Part shown: piece by piece, positions 664 to 31,440 of the stretch
Layout: the number at the start of each line of letters is the position of its first letter
Numbering within the stretch: the stretch's first letter is position 1
DNA from: a virus
Reading direction: 5' to 3' (one strand)
IMG/VR virus record: IMGVR_UViG_3300013014_000084
Location: 1 to 33,199 of that record
DNA: 33,199 bases
The notes under the pieces: model-generated
Seen by the model: only the letters and a program-made list of their open reading frames with translations
What the model was told of the DNA's origin: nothing
The model's database searches: none
Made by a program: the position numbers and the translations under genes

Positions 664-1407
664 TTATGTAGATATCGACCCATAATACAAATATTGTCCT
701 AAACCTGTTATTCCATAATTAACTACGCTATTAGTATCAGTTGTATAAACTTCAAAATCACTAATAAAATATGATCCGGACAAATATAAATTGTTTATAC
801 CATCGTCTAAAATATCACCAACTATATCACCTGTTTGATTATTAATTACTACACTAAAAGGACTAATTTTGTCACCGCTCTGTGTTACATTTAATGTATA
901 ACTTATAAATTTATCATCCAAATTTAACTTAGCTTTAGATGTATCGTATCCATCAAATCCAAAAATATTATATGAGTTATTATAATTATTATAATACATA
1001 TTTTTTATTGTATTATAAACCTGTCCTTGATAAGTGCCATCTAAATTGATAGGATTAGTTTCACCATTATAATGAATATTATCGACTGGATAAAATACTG
1101 ATCCAGCTGAAATCTTTAACCCAAATTGAAACTGTGGATTATTTGGATCTTCTATCGGCGAACAAGCCAAGAAACCATTAGAATTAATTAATGATGACGT
1201 ACAACTATCATTGTTAACCGTAGCAAATGATCCTGTATCTAAATAATTAAAATTATAATCACATTCCTCTATGGCAATCACCAATGGGAAATTATACGTA
1301 CCATCACTTAGTAGTAGCAAATCAGAAAAGATGTTATTAGCGACTTTAGTCTTTGCTACCGAAAATGTAGTAACTTGTATGTCTTGATTTTTGAGAAATT
1401 TAATCAT
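664..1407 (-). CDS. Virion-associated hypothetical protein, 247 aa
   Basis: I do not recognise the family. The protein is rich in Asn, Tyr, Ser and Thr, with alternating hydrophobic stretches that suggest an all-beta structural protein. It has several aromatic/Asn-rich loops (MYYNNYNNSYNIFGFDGYD) and no signal peptide or membrane helix. It lies between a 369-aa virion protein and an FG-GAP-like protein on the same strand, so a tail or baseplate accessory role is inferred. The ATG at 1407 is preceded by TATTTATA with a 5-nt spacer (TTGGG), so it may begin its own transcript. Confidence 0.8.
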   Translation of the reverse strand: MIKFLKNQDIQVTTFSVAKTKVANNIFSDLLLLSDGTYNFPLVIAIEECDYNFNYLDTGSFATVNNDSCTSSLINSNGFLACSPIEDPNNPQFQFGLKISAGSVFYPVDNIHYNGETNPINLDGTYQGQVYNTIKNMYYNNYNNSYNIFGFDGYDTSKAKLNLDDKFISYTLNVTQSGDKISPFSVVINNQTGDIVGDILDDGINNLYLSGSYFISDFEVYTTDTNSVVNYGITGLGQYLYYGSIST

Positions 1408-1412
1408 CCCAA

Positions 1413-1420
1413 TATAAATA
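1413..1420 (-). promoter_or_regulatory. TATTTATA box before the 247-aa gene
   Basis: On the coding strand TATTTATA lies 5 nt before the ATG at 1407. The same box and spacing recur upstream of other genes in this window. It is a candidate phage late promoter or initiation element; no transcript data are available. Confidence 0.4.
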
Positions 1421-1442
1421 GGAAGATTTAAAAGTATTTAGA

Positions 1443-2552
1443 TTAAAAATCAATACGACACTTAATCAACAACTCATTATCAAATGATTTTTGTGTAGGT
1501 CTACTTAGTTTACCTACAGCTAATAGTTCGTTATTAGAATCATATAATCCAATTGTGGTAATATAAGTACGAGGATTACTAATAAGTGCTGGATATATAA
1601 TAGTGCCTTTAGTTTTACCGTCAGTACCATCTGATACAAATGTTGGGTTGTTACTGTAATTGAATTCTTTATTTTTTACTCTGATGAAGTAATTGGTAGA
1701 TGGTACAAATTCTGATTTACGAACCGCCATATTCTTATTTGATTTTTTTATACTCAAATAGAATTTACGTAACCAATTTCTCCAATAACTTTTCCAGTTA
1801 ACTGAATATTGATTGGTTGTTCTGGAATTAGTAATTTCTGGTGGATTTCCAGTAATACCAACTCTCGCATCTAACTTTAATGCGTTCAATATAACTACTC
1901 CATTTGTAGGATAAAATAAACCGATTCCGTCATAAACACCGGATACGGTACCACCTTTAGTATATGGAGTTGGAACTCCGTTAATAATAGATCCTGAAAT
2001 CAAGTTATAAACATTTTGTTGTGTATTAATAACTTGGGAATCGTCGATATACGAGAATTGACCTAAAGAGCCAGTGAAATTTAATTGAATTTGGCCTGGA
2101 TCAATTTGATCTTGGAATTTATCAGCTACATAGTTTAGTACAAAGATTGCGGAACTGTCAGTTGGAGAATCAACACTACCAGATGCAAAGCTAAAGAATG
2201 TATCGCCTGGTTGTAAAAGTGTGTTTTTATATTGTGTATATATAATTTTGGTTTCATTCGTATACACGTTTGCTATTGATTGACCCGGATAATTAAAATA
2301 ACTACTGCCTGAATTATAATAATCTCCATAAGCAACGGCAAAATATTGATCGCCTCCACTATATATATCAATGTAATATTGTGCATTTCTTACGTCAAAT
2401 GGACTAGATCCTGTCATGACGTTTGCTTGGGCGGATGAAGTTACAAATGATGATTGTGCTACTGTCAAACTACCAGTACCAAACATGCCCGATGATACCT
2501 GGTTAATTCTTCCTGCTACTACGTCGTCTGGAGTAAATGGTGTGAATATCAT
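1443..2552 (-). CDS. Virion structural protein, 369 aa
   Basis: This protein begins MIFTPFTPDDVVAG and has a Ser/Gly/Tyr-rich beta-type body. The last ~50 residues contain NPRTYITTIGLYDSNNELLAVGKLSRP and end in a KCRIDF-like strand. This 'TTIGLYD..xELLAVGKLS' block resembles the conserved strand region of phage tail-collar and fibre-associated proteins, where it seems to act as a small attachment domain. That is recognition by eye, not a search result. The gene is 6 nt downstream of the 213-aa gene, with a TAA-TAATAT-ATG junction and no Shine-Dalgarno, so coupled translation is likely. A tail, collar or baseplate-peripheral role is inferred. Confidence 0.7.
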   Translation of the reverse strand: MIFTPFTPDDVVAGRINQVSSGMFGTGSLTVAQSSFVTSSAQANVMTGSSPFDVRNAQYYIDIYSGGDQYFAVAYGDYYNSGSSYFNYPGQSIANVYTNETKIIYTQYKNTLLQPGDTFFSFASGSVDSPTDSSAIFVLNYVADKFQDQIDPGQIQLNFTGSLGQFSYIDDSQVINTQQNVYNLISGSIINGVPTPYTKGGTVSGVYDGIGLFYPTNGVVILNALKLDARVGITGNPPEITNSRTTNQYSVNWKSYWRNWLRKFYLSIKKSNKNMAVRKSEFVPSTNYFIRVKNKEFNYSNNPTFVSDGTDGKTKGTIIYPALISNPRTYITTIGLYDSNNELLAVGKLSRPTQKSFDNELLIKCRIDF

Positions 2553-2558
2553 ATATTA

Positions 2559-3200
2559 TTAATTTGTGGTAGGAACACTAACAGTTACATTGATTGAAGT
2601 ACTTCCACCACTTTCATTGCCAATGATAGTAATATTAGTTGTTGTTGTTTTAGACAAAGAACTATTTGGAATAAATCTAAACTTATTACCTATAACGACT
2701 TGTGACGATTGTGATGCTAAATCGCCTGTGAATGATGGAATCGTCGCGGATGTAGAATTCAAATTATTAGTTTCAGTGACCACTAAAGTGCCAACATTTT
2801 TATTAGTCAAAATTGCTGTATATCCCAATGTCACATTATAAACTGGACTTGTATTTGGGATAACGTCAATTGCAGCTGAATAAGTACGTGGTACAGAAAT
2901 CAATGGCGGTGCAATACTAATAGTTGGCACCGATGTAACGCCATCATTCAAAGTGACCAACTTATATTTCATTGTCTGTGATTCATCCGTAATGGGTTCC
3001 ATAATTGGAGTGTTACGAATAGCTATATCGTAATAAGCACTGCCCAGTGGGTGAGTTGGATTAAATTGAGTATAATCAATTTCGTCATCAGCTAAAGCGA
3101 ATGCTGTAATGTTCAATCCACCTGTTTTTGCTAATACTTCACGACCTTTTTTTGTCAGTATCGCGTTAACAGTCAGAACGTTGTTATTAAGGTATGCCAT
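2559..3200 (-). CDS. Virion protein with LTKKGRE...ALADDEIDY N-terminal domain, 213 aa
   Basis: The N-terminus carries LTKKGREVLAK, then ITAFALADDEIDYTQF, a block I know from small structural proteins of T4-like marine phages. The C-terminal part from about residue 105 is Thr/Val/Ser-rich with an Ig-like beta-sandwich pattern (VTLGYTAILTNKNVGTLVV, NITIIGNESGGSTSINVTVSVP). The likely architecture is therefore an attachment domain plus an Ig-like or decoration domain. It lies between the 1482-aa protein and the 369-aa protein. TTATTTACATATG surrounds the start, a degenerate version of the TATTTATA box. Exact virion location is unknown. Confidence 0.7.
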   Translation of the reverse strand: MAYLNNNVLTVNAILTKKGREVLAKTGGLNITAFALADDEIDYTQFNPTHPLGSAYYDIAIRNTPIMEPITDESQTMKYKLVTLNDGVTSVPTISIAPPLISVPRTYSAAIDVIPNTSPVYNVTLGYTAILTNKNVGTLVVTETNNLNSTSATIPSFTGDLASQSSQVVIGNKFRFIPNSSLSKTTTTNITIIGNESGGSTSINVTVSVPTTN

Positions 3201-3246
3201 ATGTAAATAATTATCAAGTGTTTTTAGTTTTTAATCAAAAATTATA

Positions 3247-14618: not shown

Positions 14619-16325
14619 TTAATCCTCAAATTCAAATTCAACTTGTACTGGACCTTCACGACGATTTCTACCTTTGAAATCACCCACAACTCCAGCGCCT
14701 GTAACCGTATTAATTTCCACCGGATCTTTACACTCTCCACCACTACCAGTTGGTTTAACTCCATTACTACCTGGAGCATATCCACCTCCGGTCACGAATA
14801 CACGTCTACTTAGTGTCTTGTGTAAATTATCTCTTAATAATTGTAGTTTAATTTGTTGTACCGGTATTTGTGTTTGATCTGGATTAGCGTCATTGGTATT
14901 TTCAGCATCAATTTTACCGGCATCTTCATGACCATGTGGATGTGGATGAACGTGATGATACCAATGTACATGATCCAATAGCCAGTTACAAAGATCATAC
15001 ATCCAATCTACAGTTGTTTGACCCAATAACGCTGGTTCATTGGTTTCACCATATTGTCCTAAAAATATTTGGGGAGCATTTATAGTTGCTGTATTATTAG
15101 TGGTTATAACAACTTGATCATTAGCATCAACTGTATATTCACTATCTGTAGCAACAGCATAACGTTTTTTACTAAAATGAAAAGTTTCTGCAAATCTACT
15201 ACTCAATATTAAACGATCACTATTAATAACAATTTGATCGCCTATCAATGTTGGAAATTTAAATTGCGTAGAACCTTTTGGATTGAATCTAGATTGTTCT
15301 TCGGTTGATTTATTTTCACTGTTTATTCCAAATATACTTTTATATACAGTGGTTTGCCATGCACTTACTGTATATCCACTTGTTATTTGTATAGTACTTC
15401 CATCGTTGTTAATATCTTCATCTATCTGACCACCATAATTCTTTTCTTTATCAGTTATAGGAGATATTGGAGGAAGTTTAGGATGTAACTGTTGTGTAGT
15501 TTTTTGTGCAATATTACGTTGACGATTTCGTATAGTTAGTTTGGGATTTCCATATCCACTTCCGACTGACTCTTTGAATAGATTTCCATTTAAAGCATAA
15601 GATGCATATGCTCCTTTGTCATTAGAACGATTATCGTCATAAGCACTAAATCTTATAGATTGTCCAAATCTACTTTCAATTATAGTATCGCCCTCAAATT
15701 GACGAACACTGCGTATGAATGGATTGCATATAAAATAGTTACCAAAATATCCCGTTTGATTTTGATTTATAAATATTGGATGACTTACGTAACTTTTACA
15801 ATTTTTAGGTTGTAAATATGCAATTGCGCTTTTTCCATCATCGCTGCTTGATTTTTCAGTTATAAACTCCCCATTTGTTCCTAGAAAATTCAAACGATTA
15901 AATGGCTTTGTGTAATAATAATTCTCCCCTATTTTTAAAACCAAAACTTTTTCATTTAATAATGGAAATTGTGTGATGGTATTATCCAATGGAATTGCCC
16001 ATGGCAACTTATCATAAGACGTTTGTTTTTCTTCGCTTAAAATGCGAATTTTAACTCGACCAATATAACTGAAATCAGTATCTGTCGCAAGTGGTATTGT
16101 ATTATTGTAATTTACCGGTATTTGTTGATATCTTACAGTTGGAGGAGGCTGTGAATTTTTATCGGTTGTTGTTTTTCCAAAAAAAGGATGTTTATCGTCT
16201 AAAATAATATCTACAACAACTGCTAATTTTAAGAAATTAGTATCTATATTGTTATTAGATGTGTTTAAAACAGTTGACGTAGATGGATTTAAAAGTCTAG
16301 CTATAGTAGATACGTTTGTGCTCAT
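14619..16325 (-). CDS. Central baseplate spike, gp5-type OB-fold protein without lysozyme, 568 aa
   Basis: Residues ~30-150 look like an OB-fold as in gp5/VgrG-type hubs (FLKLAVVVDIILDD..., IGRVKIRILSEE..., WAIPLDNTITQFPLLNEKVLVLKIG). Next, RFGQSIRFSAYDD and NPKLTIRNRQ form the segment I associate with phage spike proteins. The beta-helix-like part (VDANDQVVITTNNTATINAPQIFLG) precedes a His-rich stretch near residues 443-467 (HVHWYHHVHPHPHGHED) that could bind metal. No lysozyme domain is visible, unlike T4 gp5. It begins at a TAATG overlap with the gene before it. The role is to pierce the cell envelope at the tail tip. Confidence 0.8.
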   Translation of the reverse strand: MSTNVSTIARLLNPSTSTVLNTSNNNIDTNFLKLAVVVDIILDDKHPFFGKTTTDKNSQPPPTVRYQQIPVNYNNTIPLATDTDFSYIGRVKIRILSEEKQTSYDKLPWAIPLDNTITQFPLLNEKVLVLKIGENYYYTKPFNRLNFLGTNGEFITEKSSSDDGKSAIAYLQPKNCKSYVSHPIFINQNQTGYFGNYFICNPFIRSVRQFEGDTIIESRFGQSIRFSAYDDNRSNDKGAYASYALNGNLFKESVGSGYGNPKLTIRNRQRNIAQKTTQQLHPKLPPISPITDKEKNYGGQIDEDINNDGSTIQITSGYTVSAWQTTVYKSIFGINSENKSTEEQSRFNPKGSTQFKFPTLIGDQIVINSDRLILSSRFAETFHFSKKRYAVATDSEYTVDANDQVVITTNNTATINAPQIFLGQYGETNEPALLGQTTVDWMYDLCNWLLDHVHWYHHVHPHPHGHEDAGKIDAENTNDANPDQTQIPVQQIKLQLLRDNLHKTLSRRVFVTGGGYAPGSNGVKPTGSGGECKDPVEINTVTGAGVVGDFKGRNRREGPVQVEFEFED

Positions 16326-16669
16326 TATTGATTACCTTTGCTAATTGTTATAACTTCTTCCATCAATTGTTTTCTTTCATCTTCACTGAGCACCATAGAT
16401 GGACCTTCCCCACTTGCTTCGCCTTTAGCGACTAATCGTTGTACTACAGATGCTAATTTAACCAATTGTTCGTCATTTTTAATACCGACATCGTAGTAGT
16501 CTTTAATGAGTGGAACAATAATCACAGCATCATTAACTGTTTTAATCAAAGTGCGTAATTCAGAAATCAATATATCAATTTGATCTTTCTTGTTTTCTGA
16601 ATTTTTCACTATATCTTTACAAAGACCAGAAAAATGCTTTCCTTTGTAAATTTCAAAATTTAAGTCCAT
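16325..16669 (-). CDS. Helical protein at head of baseplate operon, 114 aa
   Basis: The family is not recognised; the protein is all-helical (IDILISELRTLIKTVNDAVIIVPLIKDYYD..., SEDERKQLMEEVITISKGNQ). I chose ATG at 16669, giving MDLNFEIYKGKHF. The frame can be extended to a TTG at 16696, but that codon lies inside the hairpin terminator, which makes it unlikely. This start has TATTTATA with a 5-nt spacer upstream. It overlaps the spike gene by TAATG. It may be a baseplate chaperone or a small hub part; this is inference. Confidence 0.7.
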   Translation of the reverse strand: MDLNFEIYKGKHFSGLCKDIVKNSENKKDQIDILISELRTLIKTVNDAVIIVPLIKDYYDVGIKNDEQLVKLASVVQRLVAKGEASGEGPSMVLSEDERKQLMEEVITISKGNQ

Positions 16670-16674: not shown

Positions 16675-16682
16675 TATAAATA
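16675..16682 (-). promoter_or_regulatory. TATTTATA box before baseplate operon
   Basis: Coding-strand TATTTATA spans -13 to -6 relative to the ATG at 16669 (spacer GGTAT) and directly follows the terminator at 16685-16710. The box therefore sits exactly where a new transcript of the baseplate operon would start. Confidence 0.5.
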
Positions 16683-16684: not shown

Positions 16685-16710
16685 AAAACCACTCAAAATA
16701 GAGTGGTTTT
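16685..16710 (-). terminator. Rho-independent terminator after the sigma gene
   Basis: A 10-bp perfect stem (AAAACCACTC / GAGTGGTTTT) with a 6-nt loop is followed on the minus strand by TTTTTCTATTT. It separates the sigma-factor unit from the baseplate operon. Confidence 0.8.
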
Positions 16711-16726: not shown

Positions 16727-17725
16727 TTATAATGTTCCTCTATGACTATAATTTCTCATCACAATATTTTGATAACTCTTCATTTTATTAATTACTTTTG
16801 TAATTTGTTGTGTTTTACAGTTACTGAGTTCTCTAATATAAAGATACAATGTTTTCTTATTAAAATTCTCAATTCTTTCACAATTTCTAAATAATTCAAT
16901 AACGGCGTATGCGATATTTAAATCTTTCTGCTTATTAAATATTTTTGTAATATTACACTCCCAATAATTTACCATGAGTTTCATGAATTCTTGTGTCTGA
17001 ACATCTTTATGATGTGCGTCTTCAGTTTGTAAACAGACAGAAGATTCACTTGGAGTATCGCTTATATCTACGTGTTGATTGAATCTTTTATAGTTATTGT
17101 TATTGTGGAATATTAAATAATTCTTAGCTACTATACTAAAATAACTAAATGCTTTGCCTTTACCTGCTTGAAATTTATGTATATTAGTTACCAAATGTGA
17201 TACTGTTTCTTTTTGAATTTCCTGAGGACTATTATCAAAATAAGTAAATTTAAATGTGTTAAATATATTTTCCACTAATTTGTCAAAACTAAACTTTATC
17301 TTTGTTTCATAGATTTCATTTCTTCTTGTATCATCTTCTTCATTATTATATTCTATGATAGCATCTTCTGTTTTTTTACTAAAATAAATTTTATCTTTTT
17401 TGTTTCTCCCACGTCTTTTTTTTCTTTCACCATTTACATCGAATTGAGACTCTTCACTATCATTACTTTTAATAATATTTTGTGTTTGAATACTACGTGG
17501 CACTTCAATATTAGAAATATTTTTTGATTTCGATGTGGTCTTTTTCTCTGCGTTCAGAACAATAATATCAATATCATTCTTAGGTTTTTTAACTAATTTA
17601 ACCATCTGAATGGCCGTTTTATCTTTTTTATTAACACCGTCTTTAAGAACCACAATCTTCTTTATTTTTTTAGAATGGTTTATTTTTGTTTTTTTCATCA
17701 ATGTCGGTTGATTTATCATTATCAT
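16727..17725 (-). CDS. 55: Late-transcription sigma factor, gp55-like, 332 aa
   Basis: The core (FDKLVENIFNTFKFTYFD, EIQKETVSHLVTNIHKF, GKGKAFSYFSIVAKNYLI, NNNNYKRFNQH) matches gp55-like late sigma factors of T4-like phages, where this is the region-2 helix set that binds RNA polymerase and melts the promoter. In T4, gp55 works with a sliding clamp and reads TATAAATA. This protein is longer because of a basic N-terminal extension of about 120 residues (MKKTKINHSKKIKKIVVLK, RRGRNKKDK). A later ATG at 17698 gives MKKTKINHSK; either start overlaps the upstream gene (ends 17670). It is followed by a terminator, so it is the last gene of its unit. Confidence 0.72.
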   Translation of the reverse strand: MIMINQPTLMKKTKINHSKKIKKIVVLKDGVNKKDKTAIQMVKLVKKPKNDIDIIVLNAEKKTTSKSKNISNIEVPRSIQTQNIIKSNDSEESQFDVNGERKKRRGRNKKDKIYFSKKTEDAIIEYNNEEDDTRRNEIYETKIKFSFDKLVENIFNTFKFTYFDNSPQEIQKETVSHLVTNIHKFQAGKGKAFSYFSIVAKNYLIFHNNNNYKRFNQHVDISDTPSESSVCLQTEDAHHKDVQTQEFMKLMVNYWECNITKIFNKQKDLNIAYAVIELFRNCERIENFNKKTLYLYIRELSNCKTQQITKVINKMKSYQNIVMRNYSHRGTL

Positions 17726-18180: not shown

Positions 18181-19191
18181 TCAAAAACTAAACATACCTC
18201 TTACTCCAGTTGATTTTTTAGAACGTTTTTCAACCTCAACAGGCTTTTCTACTATACGTTCAACTATTTTTTCAACCTCAACAGGCTTTTCTACTATACG
18301 CTCAACTATTTTTTCAACCTCAACAGGCTTTTCTACTATACGTTCAACTGTTGAATGTGTTGGTTTATCGTTGTACTCATCTGTGAATTTTTCTTGTTTT
18401 TTGTCATCTTCTGAATAAATTTTATTTGTACTTATATTATACGCCAATAATAATACGACAGCGAGTGGATCAAATACAGTAATAAGCACTACAATAAACC
18501 ATTTTACTACATTTTGAATCGTTGTATTAAATTGATCAGCAACAAATTTAAACGTTATAATATCTTTCTTCTGACTATTATCTACTTTTAACTTGAAAAT
18601 ATCATCATCCACAGATGTTGATTTAACACTATAGGTTTTGATTTTATCATTTTCGTTTTCTAACTGTTTATTGAGATCTGTAATTTGATCGTTAATTTGA
18701 TTTTGGATATTTTGTAGTTGGATTGGATTACGAGCAATTAATACATTTGTAAGTACTCCGTTCAATCTACTTTCTTGACTACTTCTCAGCGCATACAGTT
18801 TTTCTATAGATTTTTTTGTAGACTCAATTTTATCAATCTCTTCTTTTTTCTGAGATTCCAGTGTTGAAATTTTATTTAATGCCAATTCAGTTTCCAAAGA
18901 TGATTTTTGAAAAGCGGCTGTCAAAAATCCAAATACACCCAATGATGTTATAGCCATCAATGCGAATACGGCAGTTATCATATAGATTCTCATTAGAATA
19001 TTAGCATAGTTCCAATATCTAAATAGCCAAGATGTTGTTACCAATTTGCCCAGTTCTAAAGCGGATGCCATTATCATAACAGCAATCGTTGCGCCTGAAA
19101 ATAATAATCCTATACCATATACGCTAAAATAAGCAGCACATCCAGCGATTAAAAGTGATGTAAATATTACCAAATGTTTAAACTGTATCAT
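18181..19191 (-). CDS. Multi-pass membrane protein with coiled coil and VEKP repeats, 336 aa
   Basis: Three N-terminal membrane helices (about 5-25, 27-48, 66-92) are followed by a coiled coil at ~97-190 (LESQKKEEIDKIESTKKSIE...). A fourth membrane helix (~228-252, WFIVVLITVFDPLAVVLLLA) precedes a charged tail with three 14-residue repeats (IVERIVEKPVEVEK) at ~282-322. The C-terminus is basic. I recognise this layout from T4-like marine phages, where it is a predicted membrane protein of unknown role. It could anchor a phage complex at the inner membrane. It starts 3 nt after a TATTTATA box and follows the Hsp20 terminator. Confidence 0.8.
   Translation of the reverse strand: MIQFKHLVIFTSLLIAGCAAYFSVYGIGLLFSGATIAVMIMASALELGKLVTTSWLFRYWNYANILMRIYMITAVFALMAITSLGVFGFLTAAFQKSSLETELALNKISTLESQKKEEIDKIESTKKSIEKLYALRSSQESRLNGVLTNVLIARNPIQLQNIQNQINDQITDLNKQLENENDKIKTYSVKSTSVDDDIFKLKVDNSQKKDIITFKFVADQFNTTIQNVVKWFIVVLITVFDPLAVVLLLAYNISTNKIYSEDDKKQEKFTDEYNDKPTHSTVERIVEKPVEVEKIVERIVEKPVEVEKIVERIVEKPVEVEKRSKKSTGVRGMFSF
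18226..18348 (-). repeat. 42-bp tandem repeat, three copies
   Basis: Three near-identical 42-bp units encode IVERIVEKPVEVEK, with only single-base differences between copies. The array lies inside the membrane-protein gene. Confidence 0.9.
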
Positions 19192-19194: not shown

Positions 19195-19202
19195 TATAAA
19201 TA
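19195..19202 (-). promoter_or_regulatory. TATTTATA box before the membrane protein
   Basis: Coding-strand TATTTATA lies 3 nt before the ATG at 19191, directly downstream of the terminator that ends the Hsp20 unit. Confidence 0.4.
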
Positions 19203-19212: not shown

Positions 19213-19244
19213 AAAAACCCCATCCAATTAAATGAACGGGATTT
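19213..19244 (-). terminator. Probable terminator after the Hsp20 gene
   Basis: On the minus strand AAATCCC pairs with GGGGTTT (one G-U) over a long loop, followed by TTTTATTTT. The stem is weaker than the other terminators here. Confidence 0.5.
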
Positions 19245-19885: not shown

Positions 19886-21172
19886 TTAATAGTAACCAAC
19901 TACATAACCCGACATCTTTGCTATACCCGACAAACCGGCTGTAGCATTTACATAAAAATTCAAAGTACCACTATTAGTGCTAGATGTAGGTTTTCCCTCA
20001 ATAGTAAAATGATTCCGGGAGGCATATGTATTGGTAGCTTCATTGCCCTGACCGGAGTAATTGTCCCATCCCCAACTTGAATAAACGTCATTTGTAATTA
20101 ACGTAGCGTTAATTTTTAGTCCGTATAAATAAATGTATTCGGACTCTTTAACCCCAAGGCTACCTTCAATTTTGAACCATTTTATTGTTTTGCCAGCTGG
20201 CACTGTTAGTTGGCCTATTATATAATCAGCTGCTGGTGCCGAAGGCGTGCCTGGCGAGGTTGAAGAATTTATTAAAGCGTTACTAAATATTAAGCCGCCA
20301 GCGCCGTCCGTATAGCTCGCACTTTTTGCTTGATTTGCAAAACTACTGCTTACAGCATAACTTGCGGTGCCATTGAATGATACTTTTTTACCTGTGCCTT
20401 TAAAATTAGTAATATTATCGATTCCTCTAAATGATCCGGTAATTAAAGATCCGTTGGATCCTATTACTTTCCCATAATGACTCCCACTAAAACTGCCTGT
20501 AGCTTTGGTATTTTTGCTTATTAAACTACCGTAGTGACTTCCACTAAAACTGCCACTAGCTTTAGTATTTTTGCTTAGTAAACTGCCGTAGTGACTTCCG
20601 CTAAAACTACCACTGGCAATCGTATTTGTACTCACAACTGAACCTCTAAAACTGCCTGTGGCTTTGGTATTTTTGCTTAGTAAACTGCCATAATGACTTC
20701 CGCTAAAGCTACCACTAGCCACAGTATTTTTGCTTAGTAAACTGCCGTAGTGACTTCCGCTAAAACTGCCTGTAGCTTTGGTATTTTTGCTTATTAAACT
20801 ACCGTAGTGACTTCCGCTAAAGCTACCACTAGCTTTGGTATTTTTACTTAATATCCGTCCCCAATAACTACCACTAAAACTGCCACTAGCTACGGTATTT
20901 TTGCTTATAACTTTACCCCAATAACTACCACTAAAACTGCCCGATGATATTCCTTTAAAACTTCCTTTAAAACTTCCTGTAAAACTTCCAGAATATGATC
21001 CTGTTAATCTGCCTAATGATGATTTTAAATCATTAATGGTACTACGTCTTGACCAAAGTGAAGAACCTGATTGAACCGTCAACAATAAATCATCGCCATC
21101 CAAATTTGAATATCTAACTAGTTGGCTTACTTTAATCGGAGTTACACTGACGTTATTACATGGTAAAGGCAT
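19886..21172 (-). CDS. Fibre/adhesin protein with 19-aa GSFSGS repeats, 428 aa
   Basis: Residues 1-55 share the N-terminal layout of two other fibre genes here (a short P-C-N start, I-x-x-SQL, then D-D-LLL, then a 'TINDLK'-type end), probably the virion-attachment domain. Residues 78-240 are nine units based on GSFSGSHYGSLLSKNTKA (19 aa, one unit of 15). The C-terminal ~150 residues (AADYIIGQLTVPAGKTIKWF... to GYVVGYY) form a globular beta domain, the likely receptor-binding tip. Beta-repeat shafts of this kind form extended fibres. It sits downstream of the protease gene. Host receptor unknown. Confidence 0.8.
   Translation of the reverse strand: MPLPCNNVSVTPIKVSQLVRYSNLDGDDLLLTVQSGSSLWSRRSTINDLKSSLGRLTGSYSGSFTGSFKGSFKGISSGSFSGSYWGKVISKNTVASGSFSGSYWGRILSKNTKASGSFSGSHYGSLISKNTKATGSFSGSHYGSLLSKNTVASGSFSGSHYGSLLSKNTKATGSFRGSVVSTNTIASGSFSGSHYGSLLSKNTKASGSFSGSHYGSLISKNTKATGSFSGSHYGKVIGSNGSLITGSFRGIDNITNFKGTGKKVSFNGTASYAVSSSFANQAKSASYTDGAGGLIFSNALINSSTSPGTPSAPAADYIIGQLTVPAGKTIKWFKIEGSLGVKESEYIYLYGLKINATLITNDVYSSWGWDNYSGQGNEATNTYASRNHFTIEGKPTSSTNSGTLNFYVNATAGLSGIAKMSGYVVGYY
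20453..20941 (-). repeat. 57-bp tandem repeat array in the fibre gene
   Basis: Eight units of 57 bp and one of 45 bp (residues 173-187) encode GSF(S)GS(H/Y)(Y/W)G...SKNT(K/V)A. Copies differ mostly at synonymous positions and at the Y-W/H-Y pair, a pattern of repeat gain and loss within a gene. Confidence 0.9.
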
Positions 21173-21177: not shown

Positions 21178-21185
21178 AATAAATA
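21178..21185 (-). promoter_or_regulatory. TATTTATT box before the GSF fibre gene
   Basis: Coding-strand TATTTATT lies 5 nt before the ATG at 21172, inside a 48-bp gap after the protease stop. It is a one-base variant of the TATTTATA box. Confidence 0.35.
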
Positions 21186-21220: not shown

Positions 21221-23074
21221 TTATAAATAAGTTGAATCGGTTTTAATTTTTAAATCAAAATTTTTGATTGCAAAATTTTCAACGACATTATAATATCTAC
21301 TGTAAAGAACATTTTGATTGCCGCCACATAAAGCGTATTCTGAATCTTCTCCTGGGCCATACGGATAATAAGAGTTCCATGCGTTAGATGAAATATACAT
21401 TTGATTATTAATTGATGATGAAATTACATATTTTCGTAATTTATCAGGTGTAAATGTTGGAAATTTTTGAAGAATCATAGCACCGAATCCACATACTTGT
21501 GGAGATGCAAATGATGTTCCGTCTAGTCTAGCACATTTCCAATTATCATCTCCGAAATATTTAGATACATTGTATTCTGCAAATTCATTAATAGTACTCG
21601 TCGCTGTAACTATAAAAGTTCCAGCCGCATATAAATCTACTCCTGGTCCTACCTGCGTATAATCTGACTTCACTCTATATTTTCGTGTGTTTGTGACTCC
21701 TACAATCGGGTATGAATACTCACGTGGGTGATCTAAAGCGCCAACTATAAAAGCTTTTCTAGAATAAGGCGATCCTCCTCTATGGTAATATAATTTTTCA
21801 TTATAATATGAGTTAGAAATGTAATTATTATAATCCAATCCACCGTTTATATCTATCTTAAGATTATCATTACCTGCAGCAATACAAACGTGTACGCCTG
21901 TATTAATACAATCTTCTAAATCGGCATTAGTTTGAGAAACTATAACAGGTATATACACATTTCCTAGAGAAAATCCATCTTTTGAAGTACCTCCTAACCA
22001 AATTCCACGTATACCTATTCTTGATAAATATGTTTCAAATCTTTGACTGGCTATAGGTTCATCGTTTTGAAAATCATAACATCGTTCTCCTCCATATACG
22101 ATATTTGGAGAGTATGTATTTGGAATTATCCAACTACTCCCGGTATAACTGCCTGTTAAAATATATGGATAAAACCGCCATTTAGATGTTATAAAGCCAG
22201 ACATAAATCCCGCCGACTGCACACTTCCCCAACTACTATTAACAATAGTTGGATTTTTAACTCCGGTTCTAGTATTAATAGGTTTATTTTGGTGAAAAGC
22301 TTTAATTAGTGGATATACGTCTTGTGTAGGAACGCCTCTAGTTGGATCACTTGTTCCTTTTAAACTATCTAATTTTATTGAATAAATATTAGCTCTTTTA
22401 GCCCATCCATACGTTTTCCCCGACGTAATCGCTGCGCATGATGTACCATGTCCATAATAGTCAACCACATTATTTATGTTTGCGTATGGAGCAGGAATTC
22501 CAGCATTAGTATACCAATCGAAGTCTATAACTCTAGAGTTTCCGTTTGAATCTAAAAATTCAGGATGATTTTTTTCTATTCCACTGTCTGTTATAATTAT
22601 ATCTACATTGGCCCCATCTAAAACGTATGTATAAGAACTTGATGTAAAGACATTTACATCGTAATATGGAGTCCCGTTATCATACGCTGTCCCTCTGTAA
22701 AATGAGCTAGAATAACGTGTTGCGTCAATTAAACCTAAATTTATACTTGAAGTAAATTCACCATATGAAGGATCATTAAAATTTCCTGTTTGTATTGCTC
22801 TATGTTTTATCTCATAACTCTCATATGTTTCATATGATAAAACATCTAAAACTCTAAAATCTTTTTTTAATTCTACAACTTCCTCATCGGTTAAATAATA
22901 ATCAGTGTTTCTTAATGATAATGGTCTTTCATCTGCAATAGTAACGATTCTAATAGGAACACAACTGCATGATGTAACAAGATGATGATGTATATTACAA
23001 TCTGAAACCATCTCATCATAAAAGTGATCGTAGTTTACATCGTCTTTTAATGTAACTGTGTATTTTTTATGCAT
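21221..23074 (-). CDS. Subtilisin-like serine protease (S8 family) in the adhesin cluster, 617 aa
   Basis: All catalytic features are present: Asp163 in IITDSGIEKNHPEF, His209 in YYGHGTSCAA, oxyanion Asn402 in IAAGNDN and Ser521 in LDGTSFASPQV. Residues 1-~100 look like an I9-type prodomain or an N-terminal attachment part; no signal peptide is visible. The ~150-residue insert between His and Asn and the long stretch (TSKWRFYPYILTGSYTGS...) fit an extended subtilase. It sits between two fibre genes with tight spacing (8 nt before, 48 nt after). It could process the fibres during assembly or act in the virion to cut host surface proteins. Those two roles are inference. Confidence 0.9.
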   Translation of the reverse strand: MHKKYTVTLKDDVNYDHFYDEMVSDCNIHHHLVTSCSCVPIRIVTIADERPLSLRNTDYYLTDEEVVELKKDFRVLDVLSYETYESYEIKHRAIQTGNFNDPSYGEFTSSINLGLIDATRYSSSFYRGTAYDNGTPYYDVNVFTSSSYTYVLDGANVDIIITDSGIEKNHPEFLDSNGNSRVIDFDWYTNAGIPAPYANINNVVDYYGHGTSCAAITSGKTYGWAKRANIYSIKLDSLKGTSDPTRGVPTQDVYPLIKAFHQNKPINTRTGVKNPTIVNSSWGSVQSAGFMSGFITSKWRFYPYILTGSYTGSSWIIPNTYSPNIVYGGERCYDFQNDEPIASQRFETYLSRIGIRGIWLGGTSKDGFSLGNVYIPVIVSQTNADLEDCINTGVHVCIAAGNDNLKIDINGGLDYNNYISNSYYNEKLYYHRGGSPYSRKAFIVGALDHPREYSYPIVGVTNTRKYRVKSDYTQVGPGVDLYAAGTFIVTATSTINEFAEYNVSKYFGDDNWKCARLDGTSFASPQVCGFGAMILQKFPTFTPDKLRKYVISSSINNQMYISSNAWNSYYPYGPGEDSEYALCGGNQNVLYSRYYNVVENFAIKNFDLKIKTDSTYL

Positions 23075-23082: not shown

Positions 23083-24174
23083 TTAACCCAAAACAACCCA
23101 TGTTGATCCATTATAACCTTGGAACTGGATATCAGTCGTATTGAATATCATATCGCCTACAGTAGGACTCACAAAACTGTTTCGCTGTATAGTTGTAAAT
23201 GAAGCAATTCTAAATGGACTTTGAGTTACTATAACTGTCCCATTTCCAAGAGATGCTGCTTGAAATCTAATATCTGTTGCGGAAGTTATTTGCGGTATAC
23301 CTGCTCCTTGTATACTAAGTGCGCTAGCGCTTACTGGCCCATCAACGTACAAAGAACCACTTCTATATCTTAATTTAGATGTACCGCCAAAAGAGTTTAG
23401 AGTTTTATATAATTGTATACTTCCACTAATGCCACTAGGTTTTGCGCCTCCATTCAGTGCATAACTAGCAGTAACAGCACGACTACCATATGAAGCTGTT
23501 AAAGCTCGTGCCGCATATGATGATGTACCGAAAAAATATGCAGACGATACGCCTCCGTTTGAAGTTGGAGTAGTAGTACCACTTTCTAATACTTTTGTTG
23601 TTGTGGCATTATAAACGTCTCCGGTTAAATTACCGGTTATATTACCACTGAATCCAGTTGTAGCCGTTATAGTTGTACCAGTTATAGTTGTAGCAGATGT
23701 ATTTCCTATAATAGTACCATCTATATTTCCCCCATTAACATCGATACTACTAAATGTGCTTGTTCCGGTAGATGTTATATTGCCTGTTACATTACCTGTC
23801 ACATTGCCTGTCACTGTTCCATTAACGGATCCAGTGACATTGCCAACCACGTTGCCAACCACGTTGCCTGTTAAATTTCCCGAAAAACCAGAGGTTGCAA
23901 TAATCGTATTACCCGTCAGTGTATTTCTAACTGAAACTGTATAAAAATTAGACGATTTGAAATCTGGATTGTAGAAACTGCCTGTATATGAAGCGTTTAC
24001 CGATCCAATGTACGTTATTAAGTTTCCAAATGTAGCTTTCTTGGAATAATACACATTATTAATACTGTCATATTGGGAAATAACCAATAGATCATTTGAA
24101 CTTATATTCGAAGAAGCCAATTGGCTTATTCTCAAAGTTTTTACATTTAAACTGTTACAAGGACTGATTGCCAT
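23083..24174 (-). CDS. Fibre protein with TGNVTGN repeats, 363 aa
   Basis: The N-terminus (PCNSLNVKTLRISQL, SNDLLVISQ, then ATFGNL) parallels the two other fibre genes here. It is followed by the block SFYNPDFKSSNFYTV shared with the 518-aa paralogue, then a beta-helix-like shaft of GNV(T/V)GN repeats and TSTGTSTFSSIDVNGG. The YFGTSSYAARALTASY part, built from ALTASYA-type units, is typical of phage fibres. The C-terminal ~85 residues (IRFQAASLGNGTVIVTQSPF... to NGSTWVVLG) look like a trimer-tip domain of tail fibres. It ends 8 nt before the protease gene. Confidence 0.78.
   Translation of the reverse strand: MAISPCNSLNVKTLRISQLASSNISSNDLLVISQYDSINNVYYSKKATFGNLITYIGSVNASYTGSFYNPDFKSSNFYTVSVRNTLTGNTIIATSGFSGNLTGNVVGNVVGNVTGSVNGTVTGNVTGNVTGNITSTGTSTFSSIDVNGGNIDGTIIGNTSATTITGTTITATTGFSGNITGNLTGDVYNATTTKVLESGTTTPTSNGGVSSAYFFGTSSYAARALTASYGSRAVTASYALNGGAKPSGISGSIQLYKTLNSFGGTSKLRYRSGSLYVDGPVSASALSIQGAGIPQITSATDIRFQAASLGNGTVIVTQSPFRIASFTTIQRNSFVSPTVGDMIFNTTDIQFQGYNGSTWVVLG
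23641..23820 (-). repeat. 180-bp duplicated segment, copy 1
   Basis: It aligns without gaps to 25387-25566 with about a dozen differences by eye. It encodes the GNITSTGTSTFSSIDVNGG...TTITATTGFSGN shaft shared by two fibre genes, a sign of recent duplication or recombination between them. Confidence 0.8.
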
Positions 24175-24209: not shown

Positions 24210-24217
24210 TATAAATA
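24210..24217 (-). promoter_or_regulatory. TATTTATA in the gap after the 107-aa gene
   Basis: TATTTATA directly follows the stop codon of the 107-aa gene and lies 35 nt before the ATG at 24174, so its spacing differs from the other boxes. Confidence 0.25.
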
Positions 24218-26119: not shown

Positions 26120-26836
26120 TTATAGCAGAGTTTTAAGTTTTTTTAATACGAATTTGACTAATCCACTTCTCACAATATCATCTTCGCCAAATTTAAATAC
26201 GTAAACTCCATTATTACGACTTTCTTCATCATCAAATACATTCATCATAGGTACAAAGCCACTTTTACCATTAATATCACTTTGATCTGGATCACCGCAA
26301 ATGAATAATTTACTAAATTCACCTACACGTGTGATTAACGTAGTAAGTTCTTTCTTAGTCATGTTTTGTGCTTCGTCTGCTACAATACATTTAGCATTCC
26401 AACTTAATCCACGTAAGAAATTGATTGGAAATCCGTGGATACGTTCTTCTTGTTTTAACTTTTCAATATCACATCGAGGTACCAACTCTTCTAATTTGTC
26501 TATCAATGGTTGGATGTATGGACTCATTTTTTCATTCAATTCACCAGGCAAAAATCCTAATTTACTATCGCTGCTTTCAACTATACTTCTAACATATACT
26601 ATTTCACTCACTCTCTTATGATTCAATAAGTTTAAACCTGCTAATATTGATGTATATGTCTTGGCAGTTCCAGCTGGACCAGAAATAAAGACACATTTTG
26701 TATTTTTGTGTTGTAATAATTCTAAAAGTTCAATTTGTTTCGGTGTTAATATACGATTATCAATTTTAATCAAATCTTTAATTTTTGCGTTTTGGTGAAC
26801 TTTTGGACTTGTGTCTTTCTTGGTGTTTTTGTTCAT
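26120..26836 (-). CDS. phoH: PhoH-like ATPase, 238 aa
   Basis: A RecA-like P-loop ATPase fold is clear: Walker A GPAGTAKT (residues 53-60), Walker B IVADEAQ (151-157) and the sensor GDPDQSD (181-187). PhoH-like ATPases are frequent in marine phages. Their exact role is unsettled; RNA/DNA helicase-like activity is proposed. The length equals other short phage PhoH proteins. The start overlaps the preceding 117-aa gene by 59 nt, so the two are coupled. There is no Shine-Dalgarno. Confidence 0.9.
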   Translation of the reverse strand: MNKNTKKDTSPKVHQNAKIKDLIKIDNRILTPKQIELLELLQHKNTKCVFISGPAGTAKTYTSILAGLNLLNHKRVSEIVYVRSIVESSDSKLGFLPGELNEKMSPYIQPLIDKLEELVPRCDIEKLKQEERIHGFPINFLRGLSWNAKCIVADEAQNMTKKELTTLITRVGEFSKLFICGDPDQSDINGKSGFVPMMNVFDDEESRNNGVYVFKFGEDDIVRSGLVKFVLKKLKTLL

Positions 26837-27131
26837 GTTGTTCTATTTGTTTTTTTAATTTAACTAACCGATCACAAAACTCATATTGTTCAGTTGCGAT
26901 GTAATGTTCAAAGATATTATCAATATTATCTCTGAAGTTTGACCGATCCAATATAACAATAAAATTTGAATTCTTAAATGCAAATACTTCGATTGACAGA
27001 TATCCGTTGTCCAGTGCGTATTGCACTGATAAAACAATCTGTTCCATTAATTTGACTTTGTTTTTCTGAATATACGATTCCATTTCATCATAATCAGAAG
27101 GTAAAGTCATTACGCTAAATGATTTATCCAT
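26778..27131 (-). CDS. Hypothetical protein with basic tail, 117 aa
   Basis: The family is not recognised. It has a compact alpha/beta body (MEQIVLSVQYALDNGYLSIEVFAFKNSNFIVILD) and a highly charged basic tail (KHQERHKSKSSPKRKN). Its 3' end overlaps the PhoH start by 59 nt. The ATG is preceded by GAGTGG and, 6 nt away, by TATTTATT. A strong terminator sits just upstream, so this is the first gene of the PhoH unit. Confidence 0.75.
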   Translation of the reverse strand: MDKSFSVMTLPSDYDEMESYIQKNKVKLMEQIVLSVQYALDNGYLSIEVFAFKNSNFIVILDRSNFRDNIDNIFEHYIATEQYEFCDRLVKLKKQIEQHEQKHQERHKSKSSPKRKN

Positions 27132-27137: not shown

Positions 27138-27145
27138 AATAAATA
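27138..27145 (-). promoter_or_regulatory. TATTTATT box before the PhoH unit
   Basis: Coding-strand TATTTATT lies 6 nt before the ATG at 27131, and the terminator at 27161-27188 is directly upstream of it. Confidence 0.4.
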
Positions 27146-27160: not shown

Positions 27161-27188
27161 AAAGGCGTTACCATTACGTAACGCCTTT
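27161..27188 (-). terminator. Rho-independent terminator after 76-aa gene
   Basis: An 11-bp perfect stem (AAAGGCGTTAC / GTAACGCCTTT) with a 6-nt loop is followed on the minus strand by TTTGTTTTATTTTT. Confidence 0.85.
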
Positions 27189-27631: not shown

Positions 27632-27782
27632 ACTATATTATTACTTTTTAAGTTTTTAACTATTGGTACATGATCAGAACTATAAGATTACCAGTCTCAT
27701 ATTCACTCAAGTATATATACAGAAGTTGGGGGATGTCAATGTTATTTTAAAGTTTTTAATCAGATATATATATTTATTCAAT
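27632..27782. promoter_or_regulatory. Divergent intergenic region between 63-aa and 893-aa genes
   Basis: This 151-bp, strongly AT-rich region separates divergent transcription units. It holds two similar TTTTAA(A)GTTTTTAA elements (27648-27659 and 27746-27759) and TATTTATT at 27771-27778 (plus strand), 4 nt before the plus-strand ATG. Both directions must start here; the exact promoter elements cannot be fixed by eye. Confidence 0.5.
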
Positions 27783-30464
27783 ATGGATAGAAATTTAAAT
27801 CATAAAGAAGCTGTAATAAAAGACATTTTAAGAGAATTTATATATGCGGAATTTAATTCTAAAAAGTCTTTGACCGAATCATATTTAGGAGTTAGCAAAA
27901 AATCAAAATTCTATAAATTGTATCAAGAAGGCATCAATCAAGGTATAGAATTACAAACGGAGGTTTTATACGAAATAATAAAACAAGATTCCAAATTAAG
28001 TGAGGATATATTTCAAAGAGCAACCGCTGGTTTCAAAAATATATTTAAAGCTGGAGACGCTAAAACTAAACTAGATACCTATTTTCAGACGTTTAAACAA
28101 CAAACCGAACCATACGTTACAACAACTCCCCCACCTGCGCTTTCAGGTATGCCAGCTAATGTTTCAGCTGCACTGCAAAATTATCGGGGAGTTGGTCCTG
28201 GTCCAAGTCAATACGCACCAGATCCAGAAACGAGCGCCGATAAATTCGGAGGTACCGCAAATACACAAAATACTAACCAAGGTATTCCTGGTTTAGGTGT
28301 ATTATTTGGCAAAAGATTTGCAAATTTAAGACCCAATCCTAAATTACAATGGTCAGCTGGTACCCCAGAAGAAATTGCTGCAAAACAATCTAAAGTAGAA
28401 CAATTGTTAAATAAACTACGTGCTAAATTGCCATCATCATTCAATGATACTTTGGATGAAATTGGCATTTTTGCAAGAGAACATCCTTATATAACCAATA
28501 TACTAATTGGTGCATTAGTAAGTCTTTTAGTTGTTAAACTAGGACCATTAATCGCAATTCCTAAACTATCGATTTTTATAATAGGTACTTCGATAAGAAC
28601 TATAGTAGGTATTTTGAAAGGAGAAGAACCTGTAAGAGCCGGTATTAAAGCCGCTACTCTTACCGCTGCAGCTATAGGATTAAGCGAGTTGTTTACAAAG
28701 TATATTCCTAACATAATGAATTGGCTCCAAACTAAATTGCAAGGAGCACAAGGACCAATGGGACCACAAGGCCCAGCAGGCGGAATGGGGCCATCAGGTC
28801 CACAAGGTCCATCAGGAGCAGCTGGTGAACCTGGAGTACCAGGAGAGACTGGTACTGGTCCTGCTGGACCTGCAGGACCACAAGGACCAGCTGGTCCAGC
28901 AGGAACATCCTTTGGTAGTGGCACTGGAGGAGTTACTACATCCGCCGTACCATCAATAACAGGCGATACAATTCAATCAAAAATAAGCGCATTAAATAAT
29001 TTACCGGATTGGGCTTCTTTAAAGGCTGGTTCGTTAACTCAAGATGTTGTAAAACTTCTTAATGGTCAATATGTGCAACCTAAAGAAGCATTAGAAATGT
29101 GGATAAATTCCATAAAAGACGCAGGTGAAGCAAAACAGTTAATAACTGCTCCTGGCATAAGACAACAACTTATGCGAAAAGGACTGTTGAGCATGTTTAG
29201 CAAGAAATTCGGCATACAAGAAGCTTTGGAACTAGACGTAATTAAAGCTGAATTATTAGCCGAAGCAAATCCTCTTCAATATGCGTTTGGTACTAGAGGC
29301 GCAAATATGGGCGCTGAAAGAATGGATTATAAATCCGTCGAAAGTGCTTATAATAAGTTCTTGACCAATACTGGTATATTACTCAAACTTAAAAATCCAA
29401 CAAGAGCAGACGTTGAGAAAAAAATATTGGAAACTGATAAAAACGTTTACGACTACTTGATGAAAGTTAAAGATTGGTTGTATCCACGTAAAGCAGATAA
29501 AGAAGCACTTCCAGATAAAGTACCACCGCCACAACCAATTCCAACTCCTCCTGGTACACCTCCAATTATACCAGTTCCACAACCACCACAACCTGATCCA
29601 GTTACTCCTCCACCACCTGGACCAGTTACTCCTCCAAAACCAGGACAACCAGACGGTGATAATCTATTTGGACCGGAAGATTGTGAAAAGATTAGAAAAA
29701 TCGCTCGTAAACAAGTATTTGCATTACGTTTACAAGGATTTGTAATTCCTCAAGGCGGAGATTATACGAAACCAAAATTAACAGGTCCAGACAAGGTAAA
29801 TGTTGTTTATTATATCAAAAATTCAACAAATGTAAGTGCTAGATACACAATCTTGATGAATGGAAAACCGATGGCATTTAGAATTGGTAATAAAAATCTC
29901 ATATCAAAAACATATGTAGATTCATTCAAAGGAAAATTAAAAGAAGCTGTAGTTAATCTATCTGTTGAGTCAATGAAAAAGGAATTTACTTCTCACTTTG
30001 TAATGGCTCTTACAAATGGAATAATGAAAGATCCTACTTTTAATCCTAAAAAATATAAGTTCCAAAGTCAAGCTTCGTATCAAGTTCTATTTAATAAAGT
30101 TAATGAATGTATTCAAGGTGACGATCAATTGAGTAGCGAAATTTCTAGTATGTTACAAACCCACACTAGATTTATATCTAAATTCAACGATGATCCAATG
30201 AACGAAAAATATAAACCTAAATTTATATTCGCGGTAACTACAGCTAGAACGTTCATTCTTGAAGAAGAAGGCGGTCAAATAACTCCTAACAAACCAGAAG
30301 AACCACCCAAAGGTTCCAATAAATCTAAATCTATCAAACCAGAACCAATCAGTACATCTGAACCTCAAGTAAAAGGATTTGGTATTCAGTCCAGAGGAGA
30401 CACTAAAGGCGCAGCTGAATCGATGACAAAACTTGGTAATTTGTTAAAAAATATAAACAAATAA
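27783..30464 (+). CDS. Large protein with hydrophobic, collagen-like and proline-rich regions, 893 aa
   Basis: I chose the ATG at 27783 (MDRNLNHKEAV); upstream extension would need TTG and crosses the promoter region. The helical N-terminus (to ~140) is followed by a Gly/Pro-rich linker. A hydrophobic stretch at ~235-280 (NILIGALVSLLVVKLGPLIAIP) probably forms membrane helices. About 18 collagen G-X-Y triplets (~321-374) have one break. A helical domain precedes a proline-rich linker (~579-625), and the C-terminal ~270 residues form a folded domain of unknown type. Collagen-like segments in phage proteins usually trimerise fibres. It is transcribed opposite to the structural genes. Function unknown; a virion or membrane-docking protein is possible. 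Confidence 0.75.
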   Translation: MDRNLNHKEAVIKDILREFIYAEFNSKKSLTESYLGVSKKSKFYKLYQEGINQGIELQTEVLYEIIKQDSKLSEDIFQRATAGFKNIFKAGDAKTKLDTYFQTFKQQTEPYVTTTPPPALSGMPANVSAALQNYRGVGPGPSQYAPDPETSADKFGGTANTQNTNQGIPGLGVLFGKRFANLRPNPKLQWSAGTPEEIAAKQSKVEQLLNKLRAKLPSSFNDTLDEIGIFAREHPYITNILIGALVSLLVVKLGPLIAIPKLSIFIIGTSIRTIVGILKGEEPVRAGIKAATLTAAAIGLSELFTKYIPNIMNWLQTKLQGAQGPMGPQGPAGGMGPSGPQGPSGAAGEPGVPGETGTGPAGPAGPQGPAGPAGTSFGSGTGGVTTSAVPSITGDTIQSKISALNNLPDWASLKAGSLTQDVVKLLNGQYVQPKEALEMWINSIKDAGEAKQLITAPGIRQQLMRKGLLSMFSKKFGIQEALELDVIKAELLAEANPLQYAFGTRGANMGAERMDYKSVESAYNKFLTNTGILLKLKNPTRADVEKKILETDKNVYDYLMKVKDWLYPRKADKEALPDKVPPPQPIPTPPGTPPIIPVPQPPQPDPVTPPPPGPVTPPKPGQPDGDNLFGPEDCEKIRKIARKQVFALRLQGFVIPQGGDYTKPKLTGPDKVNVVYYIKNSTNVSARYTILMNGKPMAFRIGNKNLISKTYVDSFKGKLKEAVVNLSVESMKKEFTSHFVMALTNGIMKDPTFNPKKYKFQSQASYQVLFNKVNECIQGDDQLSSEISSMLQTHTRFISKFNDDPMNEKYKPKFIFAVTTARTFILEEEGGQITPNKPEEPPKGSNKSKSIKPEPISTSEPQVKGFGIQSRGDTKGAAESMTKLGNLLKNINK

Positions 30465-30487
30465 TAATTGATTATAAAAAATAAAAA

Positions 30488-30534
30488 AATAACGTCACTC
30501 ATATGTATATAAAAATATTATGAGTGACGTTATT
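30488..30534. promoter_or_regulatory. Perfect 16-bp inverted repeat over the start codon of the 92-aa gene
   Basis: AATAACGTCACTCATA (30488-30503) and TATGAGTGACGTTATT (30519-30534) are exact reverse complements around a 15-nt AT-rich loop. The ATG of the next gene and its first codons lie in the right arm, so an mRNA starting upstream would hide the start codon. On the minus strand the hairpin is followed by TTTTTTTATTTTTT and could stop transcription. Confidence 0.75.
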
Positions 30535-30798
30535 AAGTTTACAGATGAAGAAATGGTATCGATTGCTAAATTGCAAAATGATTATCAACAATCAATTTAT
30601 ATGCTTGGCCAAATTGATTTAGAAAAAACAGATCTAGAACAACAACTCAAAGATTTAAATACTCGTAGAAACGAAATATTTGAAAATTGGAAAAAAACTC
30701 AACAAGATGAAAATAACTTGTTAAGTACTTTAAGTCAAAAATATGGAGACGGTAGTCTCAGTTTGAAAGACGGTACTTTCAAACCAATAGTTAAATAA
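30520..30798 (+). CDS. Small coiled-coil protein, 92 aa
   Basis: It is almost entirely helical (VSIAKLQNDYQQSIYMLGQIDLEKTDLEQQLKDLNTRRNEIFENW...). It is too short for a known assignment; small phage helical proteins of this size include assembly and packaging factors. It ends near a bidirectional terminator. Its ATG is inside a 16-bp inverted repeat, the most unusual feature of the gene. Confidence 0.75.
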   Translation: MSDVIKFTDEEMVSIAKLQNDYQQSIYMLGQIDLEKTDLEQQLKDLNTRRNEIFENWKKTQQDENNLLSTLSQKYGDGSLSLKDGTFKPIVK

Positions 30799-30806
30799 TA
30801 AATAAA

Positions 30807-30830
30807 AAACCCGGTTTTAACACCGGGTTT
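30807..30830. terminator. Bidirectional rho-independent terminator
   Basis: An 8-bp stem (AAACCCGG / CCGGGTTT) with loop TTTTAACA lies between converging genes. Both sides have T-tracts (TATTTT on plus, TTTTTTATT on minus). Confidence 0.85.
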
Positions 30831-30834
30831 TATT

Positions 30835-31020
30835 TTACTTTGTTGGATCTCCAGCTGAAGCTTCTTCTACGATAGCTTTTATCTCACTTTCAATCTCTTT
30901 CATTCGATCTTTGTATCCACTCGCTACATCTTTAAAATCTTTTTTAACATGTAAAAGATCTTCGGTTAGTTGATATACTTTCTTTTCGGCTTCAGCCTTT
31001 GTTAGTTTAATATTACTCAT
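30835..31020 (-). CDS. Small helical protein, 61 aa
   Basis: It is one long helix with a Lys/Glu pattern (KAEAEKKVYQLTEDLLHVKKDF..., RMKEIESEIKAIVEEA), probably a coiled coil, of unknown family. Its ATG overlaps the upstream stop (ATGA). It ends at the bidirectional terminator. Confidence 0.7.
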   Translation of the reverse strand: MSNIKLTKAEAEKKVYQLTEDLLHVKKDFKDVASGYKDRMKEIESEIKAIVEEASAGDPTK

Positions 31021-31430
31021 AACTGTTTTAAATCTATAATTTTTGTTACTGCTTCTATCGGTATATAACTAGTAACATAATTACCCGTATCTACATTTTT
31101 TAAATCAGGTAACTTACTCTTATCTATTACAACCACTATACCTTCTCTCTTGTCTCTGTAGTTGACCAACGCAAACCTAGCTGCCAATTTAAAATCACTC
31201 GCTAGATAACTACCCACAATGTTTCTGGTATTTCCCCTACCTCTCGACGTAACTTTACCAGTACTCTTTAAAATATTATACTCCTTCTCAGACATTCCTC
31301 TATAAAGTTTAGAACTGTCGATTGGAATTTTATCCAATTCATCCGCAATATATTGCAATTTTCCCGTCGGTTCCCATACTAGATAATCATATATGCTAGA
31401 TTCGTATAATAAACTATATCTTTTCATCAT
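31017..31430 (-). CDS. Possible ADP-ribosyltransferase-like protein, 137 aa
   Basis: The central pattern KLYRGMSEKEYNILKSTGK...VGSYLASDFKLAARFA resembles small ADP-ribosyltransferase-fold proteins: an R in LYRG (R44), a G-S-Y-L-A strand (S74) and a later acidic residue in IPIEAV (E126) could correspond to the R-S-E triad. The C-terminus (GIVVVIDKSKLPDLKN) is also typical of that fold. This is recognition by eye at a modest level; other folds are possible. Phage ADP-ribosyltransferases modify host RNA polymerase or other targets. I start at ATG 31430 (or 31427); further upstream ATG/TTG exist. TATTTATA sits 2-5 nt before it. It overlaps the next gene by ATGA. Confidence 0.45.
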   Translation of the reverse strand: MMKRYSLLYESSIYDYLVWEPTGKLQYIADELDKIPIDSSKLYRGMSEKEYNILKSTGKVTSRGRGNTRNIVGSYLASDFKLAARFALVNYRDKREGIVVVIDKSKLPDLKNVDTGNYVTSYIPIEAVTKIIDLKQL

Positions 31431-31432
31431 TA

Positions 31433-31440
31433 TATAAATA
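31433..31440 (-). promoter_or_regulatory. TATTTATA box after tmRNA terminator
   Basis: TATTTATA on the coding strand lies 2 nt before ATG 31430 and 5 nt before ATG 31427, and follows the terminator at 31474-31500. Confidence 0.4.

Follow-up and report, generated by a model that had tools for sequence, protein, structure and literature searches.

The 33,199-base virus record IMGVR_UViG_3300013014_000084 (GC 32%), the whole of which we call the window, carries the word TATTTAT[AT] a few bases before several start codons, in some cases directly after a terminator hairpin. This raises the question of whether the box is a late promoter and whether the mRNAs made from it are leaderless. The window reads as a T4-like phage, with gp6- and gp25-like baseplate proteins, a match to a gp5-related hub, PhoH, Hsp20 and tail-fibre genes. 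Its close relatives are IMG/VR contigs with gp6 identities of 47-100%, and about 50 further IMG/VR contigs have gp6 identities near 40%. Two isolated phages are also related, Flavobacterium phage immuto (gp6 identity 36%) and Microcystis phage Mel-JY01 (41%). Among the viral contigs searched for relatives of 21221-23074, none was confirmed. Gene starts throughout are those of a longest-ORF caller.

The original prediction placed boxes before the genes starting at 1407, 16669, 31427, 19191, 21172, 27131 and 27783, and all seven are present at these places (Table 1). Hairpin terminators had been claimed upstream of 16669, 19191, 27131 and 31430. A scan recovered the first three and folding the last (z -4.1), and the z-scores of all four lie between -3.5 and -6.4. 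The gene at 31427 has three in-frame ATGs (31427, 31430 and 31445), of which the caller picks 31445. The gene at 18181-19191 encodes a membrane-like protein with C-terminal VEKIVERIVEKPVE repeats, and its terminator-box upstream region is kept in close relatives.

Table 1. Boxes, terminator hairpins and the candidate sigma gene in the window
Feature	Positions	Strand	Basis
Box TATTTATA, N5 to ATG of gene 664-1407	1413..1420	-	sequence; conserved in orthologues
Box TATTTATA, N5 to ATG of gene 16325-16669	16675..16682	-	sequence; clade orthologues and immuto (longer leaders)
Terminator hairpin; its end is two bases upstream of the box of 16325-16669	16685..16710	-	scan; fold z -6.4
Candidate gp55-like sigma; conserved core residues 103-332	16727..17725	-	clade-wide conservation, weak sigma profile hits, predicted fold
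Box TATTTATA, N3 to ATG of gene 18181-19191	19195..19202	-	sequence; close orthologues nearly all keep it
Terminator hairpin upstream of the 18181-19191 box	19215..19244	-	scan; fold z -3.5
Box TATTTATT, N5 to ATG of gene 19886-21172	21178..21185	-	sequence
TATTTATA 35 nt before ATG of 23083-24174, possible leadered promoter	24210..24217	-	position only
Box TATTTATT, N6 to ATG of gene 26778-27131	27138..27145	-	sequence; conserved in orthologues
Terminator hairpin upstream of the 26778-27131 box	27161..27188	-	scan; fold z -5.5
Box TATTTATT, N4 to ATG of tail-fibre gene 27783-30464	27771..27778	+	sequence; conserved
Box TATTTATA, N5 to ATG at 31427	31433..31440	-	sequence; homologues start at the 31427 codon
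Bulged terminator hairpin, then a run of T, upstream of the 31427/31430 start	31473..31501	-	fold z -4.1; missed by simple scan

When TATTTATW was counted before gene starts against shuffled sequence, it proved enriched in the window and in four related contigs of 80-105 kb (G001 to G004). Six of the 30 called genes in the window have TATTTAT[AT] at -15 to -9 before the ATG, where 0.13 were expected and the maximum in 60 dinucleotide shuffles was 1. The 31427 site is not among the six because the caller starts that gene at 31445. In G001, G002, G003 and G004, respectively, 16, 19, 11 and 12 genes have the box at these positions (expected 0.3-0.8, maximum 2-3 in 60 shuffles); the 19 are out of the 115 genes of a 105-kb contig (0.8 in shuffles, maximum 3). 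These per-contig figures are the ones to trust, as orthologous sites in close relatives are not independent. The dinucleotide shuffles rule out chance from AT-richness. In an unbiased 8-mer count, TATTTATA and its one-base shifts were the top three enriched words in G001 to G003; the top word for T4, used as a control in the same count, was TATAAATA. The base just before TATTTAT[AT] is usually A or C.

Boxes of the window clade precede sheath, tail-fibre and head-completion genes, not capsid or portal genes; the major capsid, portal and terminase genes of this clade have no box close by. In G001 and G002, the terminase large subunit is matched by two distinct ORFs, as though an insertion or intron interrupted the gene (G002 73966-76763). 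In the uncultured jumbo phage LR756508, which has a clear homologue (45%) of the candidate sigma described below, no TATTTATA was found before genes in the 50 kb covered (80-130 kb of LR756508.1). Both LR756508 and the unboxed core late genes weigh against the late-promoter model set out below.

The word had been described as the reverse complement of the T4 late promoter word, which is true as a property of the word. It is better described as TATAAATA in the same orientation, with AA at -10/-9 changed to TT. We rejected the reverse-complement reading, as TATAAATA on the coding strand before genes of the window clade occurs only at background level; the opposite orientation of the box, [AT]ATAAATA at -15 to -9, is likewise near background in the related contigs. 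T4 itself has TATTTATA before genes at six sites, four of which overlap or face a TATAAATA. Within the open-access literature, we found no paper naming TATTTATA as a phage late promoter.

Computation strongly supports the view that the box behaves as a promoter and not as a ribosome signal, and aligned orthologous upstream regions settle the choice. Upstream of the 16325-16669 gene, the window clade has the order terminator-TATTTATA-N5-ATG. Among far relatives at 36-58% identity, the ATG of the orthologue mostly follows TATTTATT or TATTTATA by about 10-16 nt, and in immuto the box is at -21. The 2559-3200 gene has no TATTTAT box in the window; many far relatives and immuto have one there, with leaders. 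More generally, orthologous genes of distant relatives (immuto and IMG/VR contigs) also have the box in front of them, with leaders of about 10-36 nt. The same holds within the window's own clade for the tail-sheath gene, where the box is about 41 nt upstream and the leader contains GAAAGGAT. Because the box-to-ATG distance varies among orthologues in this way, the box is not tied to the ribosome. Terminators lie just upstream of 13 of 66 boxed vs 4 of 356 unboxed genes, upstream gaps are larger at boxed genes, and genes internal to operons mostly have no box.

These observations bear on the reading of the box as an AU-rich, Kozak-like element for translation initiation in a host whose translation does not rely on Shine-Dalgarno sequences, with the promoters elsewhere. 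It would fit the fixed position of the box near the ATG in the window clade and the low Shine-Dalgarno use there (the window clade has SD-like words at 10-20%; the figure for immuto is 4%, and Mel-JY01 and G006 are at 43-44%), and Flavobacterium uses adenines at -3, -6, -12 and -13. However, in relatives, and also for the sheath gene, 10-41 nt or more separate the same box from the ATG. Terminators come just before the box, and its core is T-rich, unlike the A-rich Flavobacterium signal. With most operon-internal genes lacking it as well, a translation element is already largely refuted and we consider it very improbable. A promoter of the host sigma factor, as a variant of the Bacteroidota -7 type, is another reading of the box that we regard as improbable. 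The Bacteroidota sigma-A promoter (TTG at -33, TAnnTTTG at -7) resembles the box in having TA followed by a T-rich word, with TAnnT-T shared between TATTTATA and TAnnTTTG, and in a transcription start 4-5 nt after the element; it differs in its last bases and in its -33 TTG. Immuto has two promoter-like classes, TATTTAG[AG]T and TATTTATA, and the related TATTTAG class does have the TTG, exactly 25 bases before the start of the box in 15 of 16 sites. At the same distance from TATTTATA, however, only 1 of 21 immuto sites and 1 of 62 window-clade sites have TTG, the level of chance. Host promoters of the form TAnnTTTG were also rejected for the window clade, before whose genes this word is not enriched, and the phage has a sigma candidate of its own.

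The TATTTAG[AG]T class of immuto is likely to consist of host-type early promoters; TTG-N22-TATTTAG[AG]T stands before many small hypothetical genes at about 22-77 kb of NC_055915.1. In the same genome, the TATTTATA class precedes terminase, portal, sheath and tube genes, and TATTTATT precedes PhoH. Mel-JY01 has nine genes with TTG-N17-21-TAnnTTTG, the Bacteroidota promoter form, vs 0.9 expected, which is odd for a phage recorded on a cyanobacterium.

We did not see a conserved block in the -35/-33 region of the window-clade boxes, and the best reading of TATTTAT[AT] is that it serves a far-T4 clade as its late promoter. The idea of a late promoter thus draws on the leaders of orthologues, the terminators, the gaps, the structural genes of immuto, the absence of a -33/-35 element and a gp55-like sigma in the window. 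The closest known system is the T4 late promoter (TATAAATA) with gp55, together with its versions in KVP40, 44RR, S-PM2 and Aeh1 (PMC2988020). T4 late promoters have no -35 element and are made up of an 8-bp box that lies about one turn upstream of the start, and known T4-type late promoters also vary in word, for example in Aeh1 (PMC2988020). The box shares with this system an 8-bp AT box at the -10 position, the lack of a -35 element, a gp55-like sigma and a place before structural genes. It differs in the TT for AA at -10/-9, so that the 8-bp T4 consensus is not matched, and in the spacer of 3-6 nt that takes the place of a leader in the window clade.

The gp55-like sigma that the window was predicted to encode is probably the clade-conserved 16727-17725 protein, whose core is retained through the clade, immuto and Mel-JY01 and includes a region 2.3/2.4-like KAFSYFSxxxKNYLI. 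Sequence libraries gave weak sigma hits only, the immuto homologue matched phrog_234 weakly (E 0.19), and a search of PDB sequences with the sigma profile gave no match. A profile comparison with gp55 (hhalign probability 21%, E 0.001) was one-to-one only and is suggestive only. The predicted structure (pLDDT 77) appears to contain a sigma region 2 fold. Its best match is T4 gp55 in the open complex (7d7c_F, Z 10.7, 118 residues, rmsd 5.0), and other sigma factors score nearly as well. The protein exceeds T4 gp55 in size, has an additional helical part at its C-terminal end and shows neither a recognised clamp-binding tail nor an obvious clamp-binding motif at the C-terminus. Neither the clamp (gp45) nor gp33 was identified, the PF02916 clamp-family search being uninformative as it matched nowhere. 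Equally uninformative was phrog_274, guessed to be gp55, which matched bacterial controls only and none of the contigs.

In T4 gp55, the pockets for A-12, A-9 and A-8 are lined by Y97, N13/H95 and T99, respectively (PMC7892883). The box retains A-12 and A-8 and has T in place of A-9. In the sigma alignment, Y97 corresponds to an invariant Y and T99 mostly to S. A change of H95 to F in the A-9 pocket was rejected as sufficient to explain the T at -9, since cyanophage gp55 shares this F and a cyanophage late promoter is reported to be highly similar to that of T4 (PMC2988020). For this reason, we could not name a single residue as the cause of the changed box.

The distance from the box to the ATG in the window clade is N3 at 11 sites, N4 at 22, N5 at 19, N6 at 6, N7 at 4 and shorter at 5; it ranges from 1 to 7 nt overall and is 3-6 nt at 58 of 67 sites. 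In T4, the late box lies at -13 to -6 and transcription starts after 5 nt (PMC2988020), and at Flavobacterium sigma-A promoters it starts 4-5 nt after the element (PMC6847099). The N4-N5 mode agrees with the T4-like position originally proposed for the box, and with either spacing it would put the start on or beside the A of the ATG. By analogy, we infer that late mRNAs of the window clade have no leader or almost none. At the offset matching the start site, far relatives are rich in A, which weakly supports a start there. The box could also be a late promoter whose mRNAs have a leader of 2-6 nt, or begin inside the ATG with an internal start codon being used. The variation of the spacer and the three in-frame ATGs of the 31427 gene would suit such mRNAs, and at N3 sites the T4 spacing would place the start inside the ATG unless it is shifted upstream. 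Against this, orthologues support the start codon of the 16325-16669 gene, and the N4 and N5 modes put the A of the ATG where T4 and Flavobacterium promoters would be expected to start; we therefore think such mRNAs unlikely. On balance, we favour the reading that in a far-T4 clade the late promoter has become joined to the start codon, many late mRNAs beginning at the A of AUG, and that the clade uses a gp55-like sigma whose specificity has changed (TATTTATA). Late translation in the clade would then be leaderless to a large extent, and sister clades with the same promoter would be leadered.

A similar arrangement exists in Rhodothermus phage RM378, where TATTTAA lies exactly at -13 before the ATG of nine genes, once right after a terminator, and where a weak homologue of the window sigma is encoded. 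The last bases differ (TATTTAAA-type) and the protein relation is only weak; the RM378 sites hint at a wider or convergent near-leaderless arrangement. The top upstream 8-mer of RM378 is TTATTTAA/TATTTAAA (22 vs about 1).

The model as a whole, a -10-like late promoter of a far-T4 clade that is read via a gp55-like sigma and yields leaderless or near-leaderless late mRNAs in the window clade, is one that we hold to be quite probable. TATTTAT[AT] would act, as in T4, without a -35/-33 element, and it would presumably be read, late in infection, by the core RNA polymerase of the host together with the gp55-like sigma that the clade encodes. In most relatives, transcripts from the box would keep a leader. 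In the window clade, most boxed genes would have lost the leader, with the mRNA beginning at the A of the ATG or within a base or two of it, and terminators directly upstream may insulate some of the boxed units.

If so, the known range of gp55-type late transcription would grow to take in a large clade of environmental viruses that has a new box word, and the box would serve as a simple annotation rule for the late genes of these viruses. Nature would also have supplied, in these relatives, a graded set running from leadered to leaderless as a single promoter class came to lie beside the start codon. Only a minority of Flavobacterium mRNAs lack a leader, 5.5% in F. psychrophilum (PMC9723704), and late-phase leaderless translation could be tested directly in a phage in which many late genes are leaderless.
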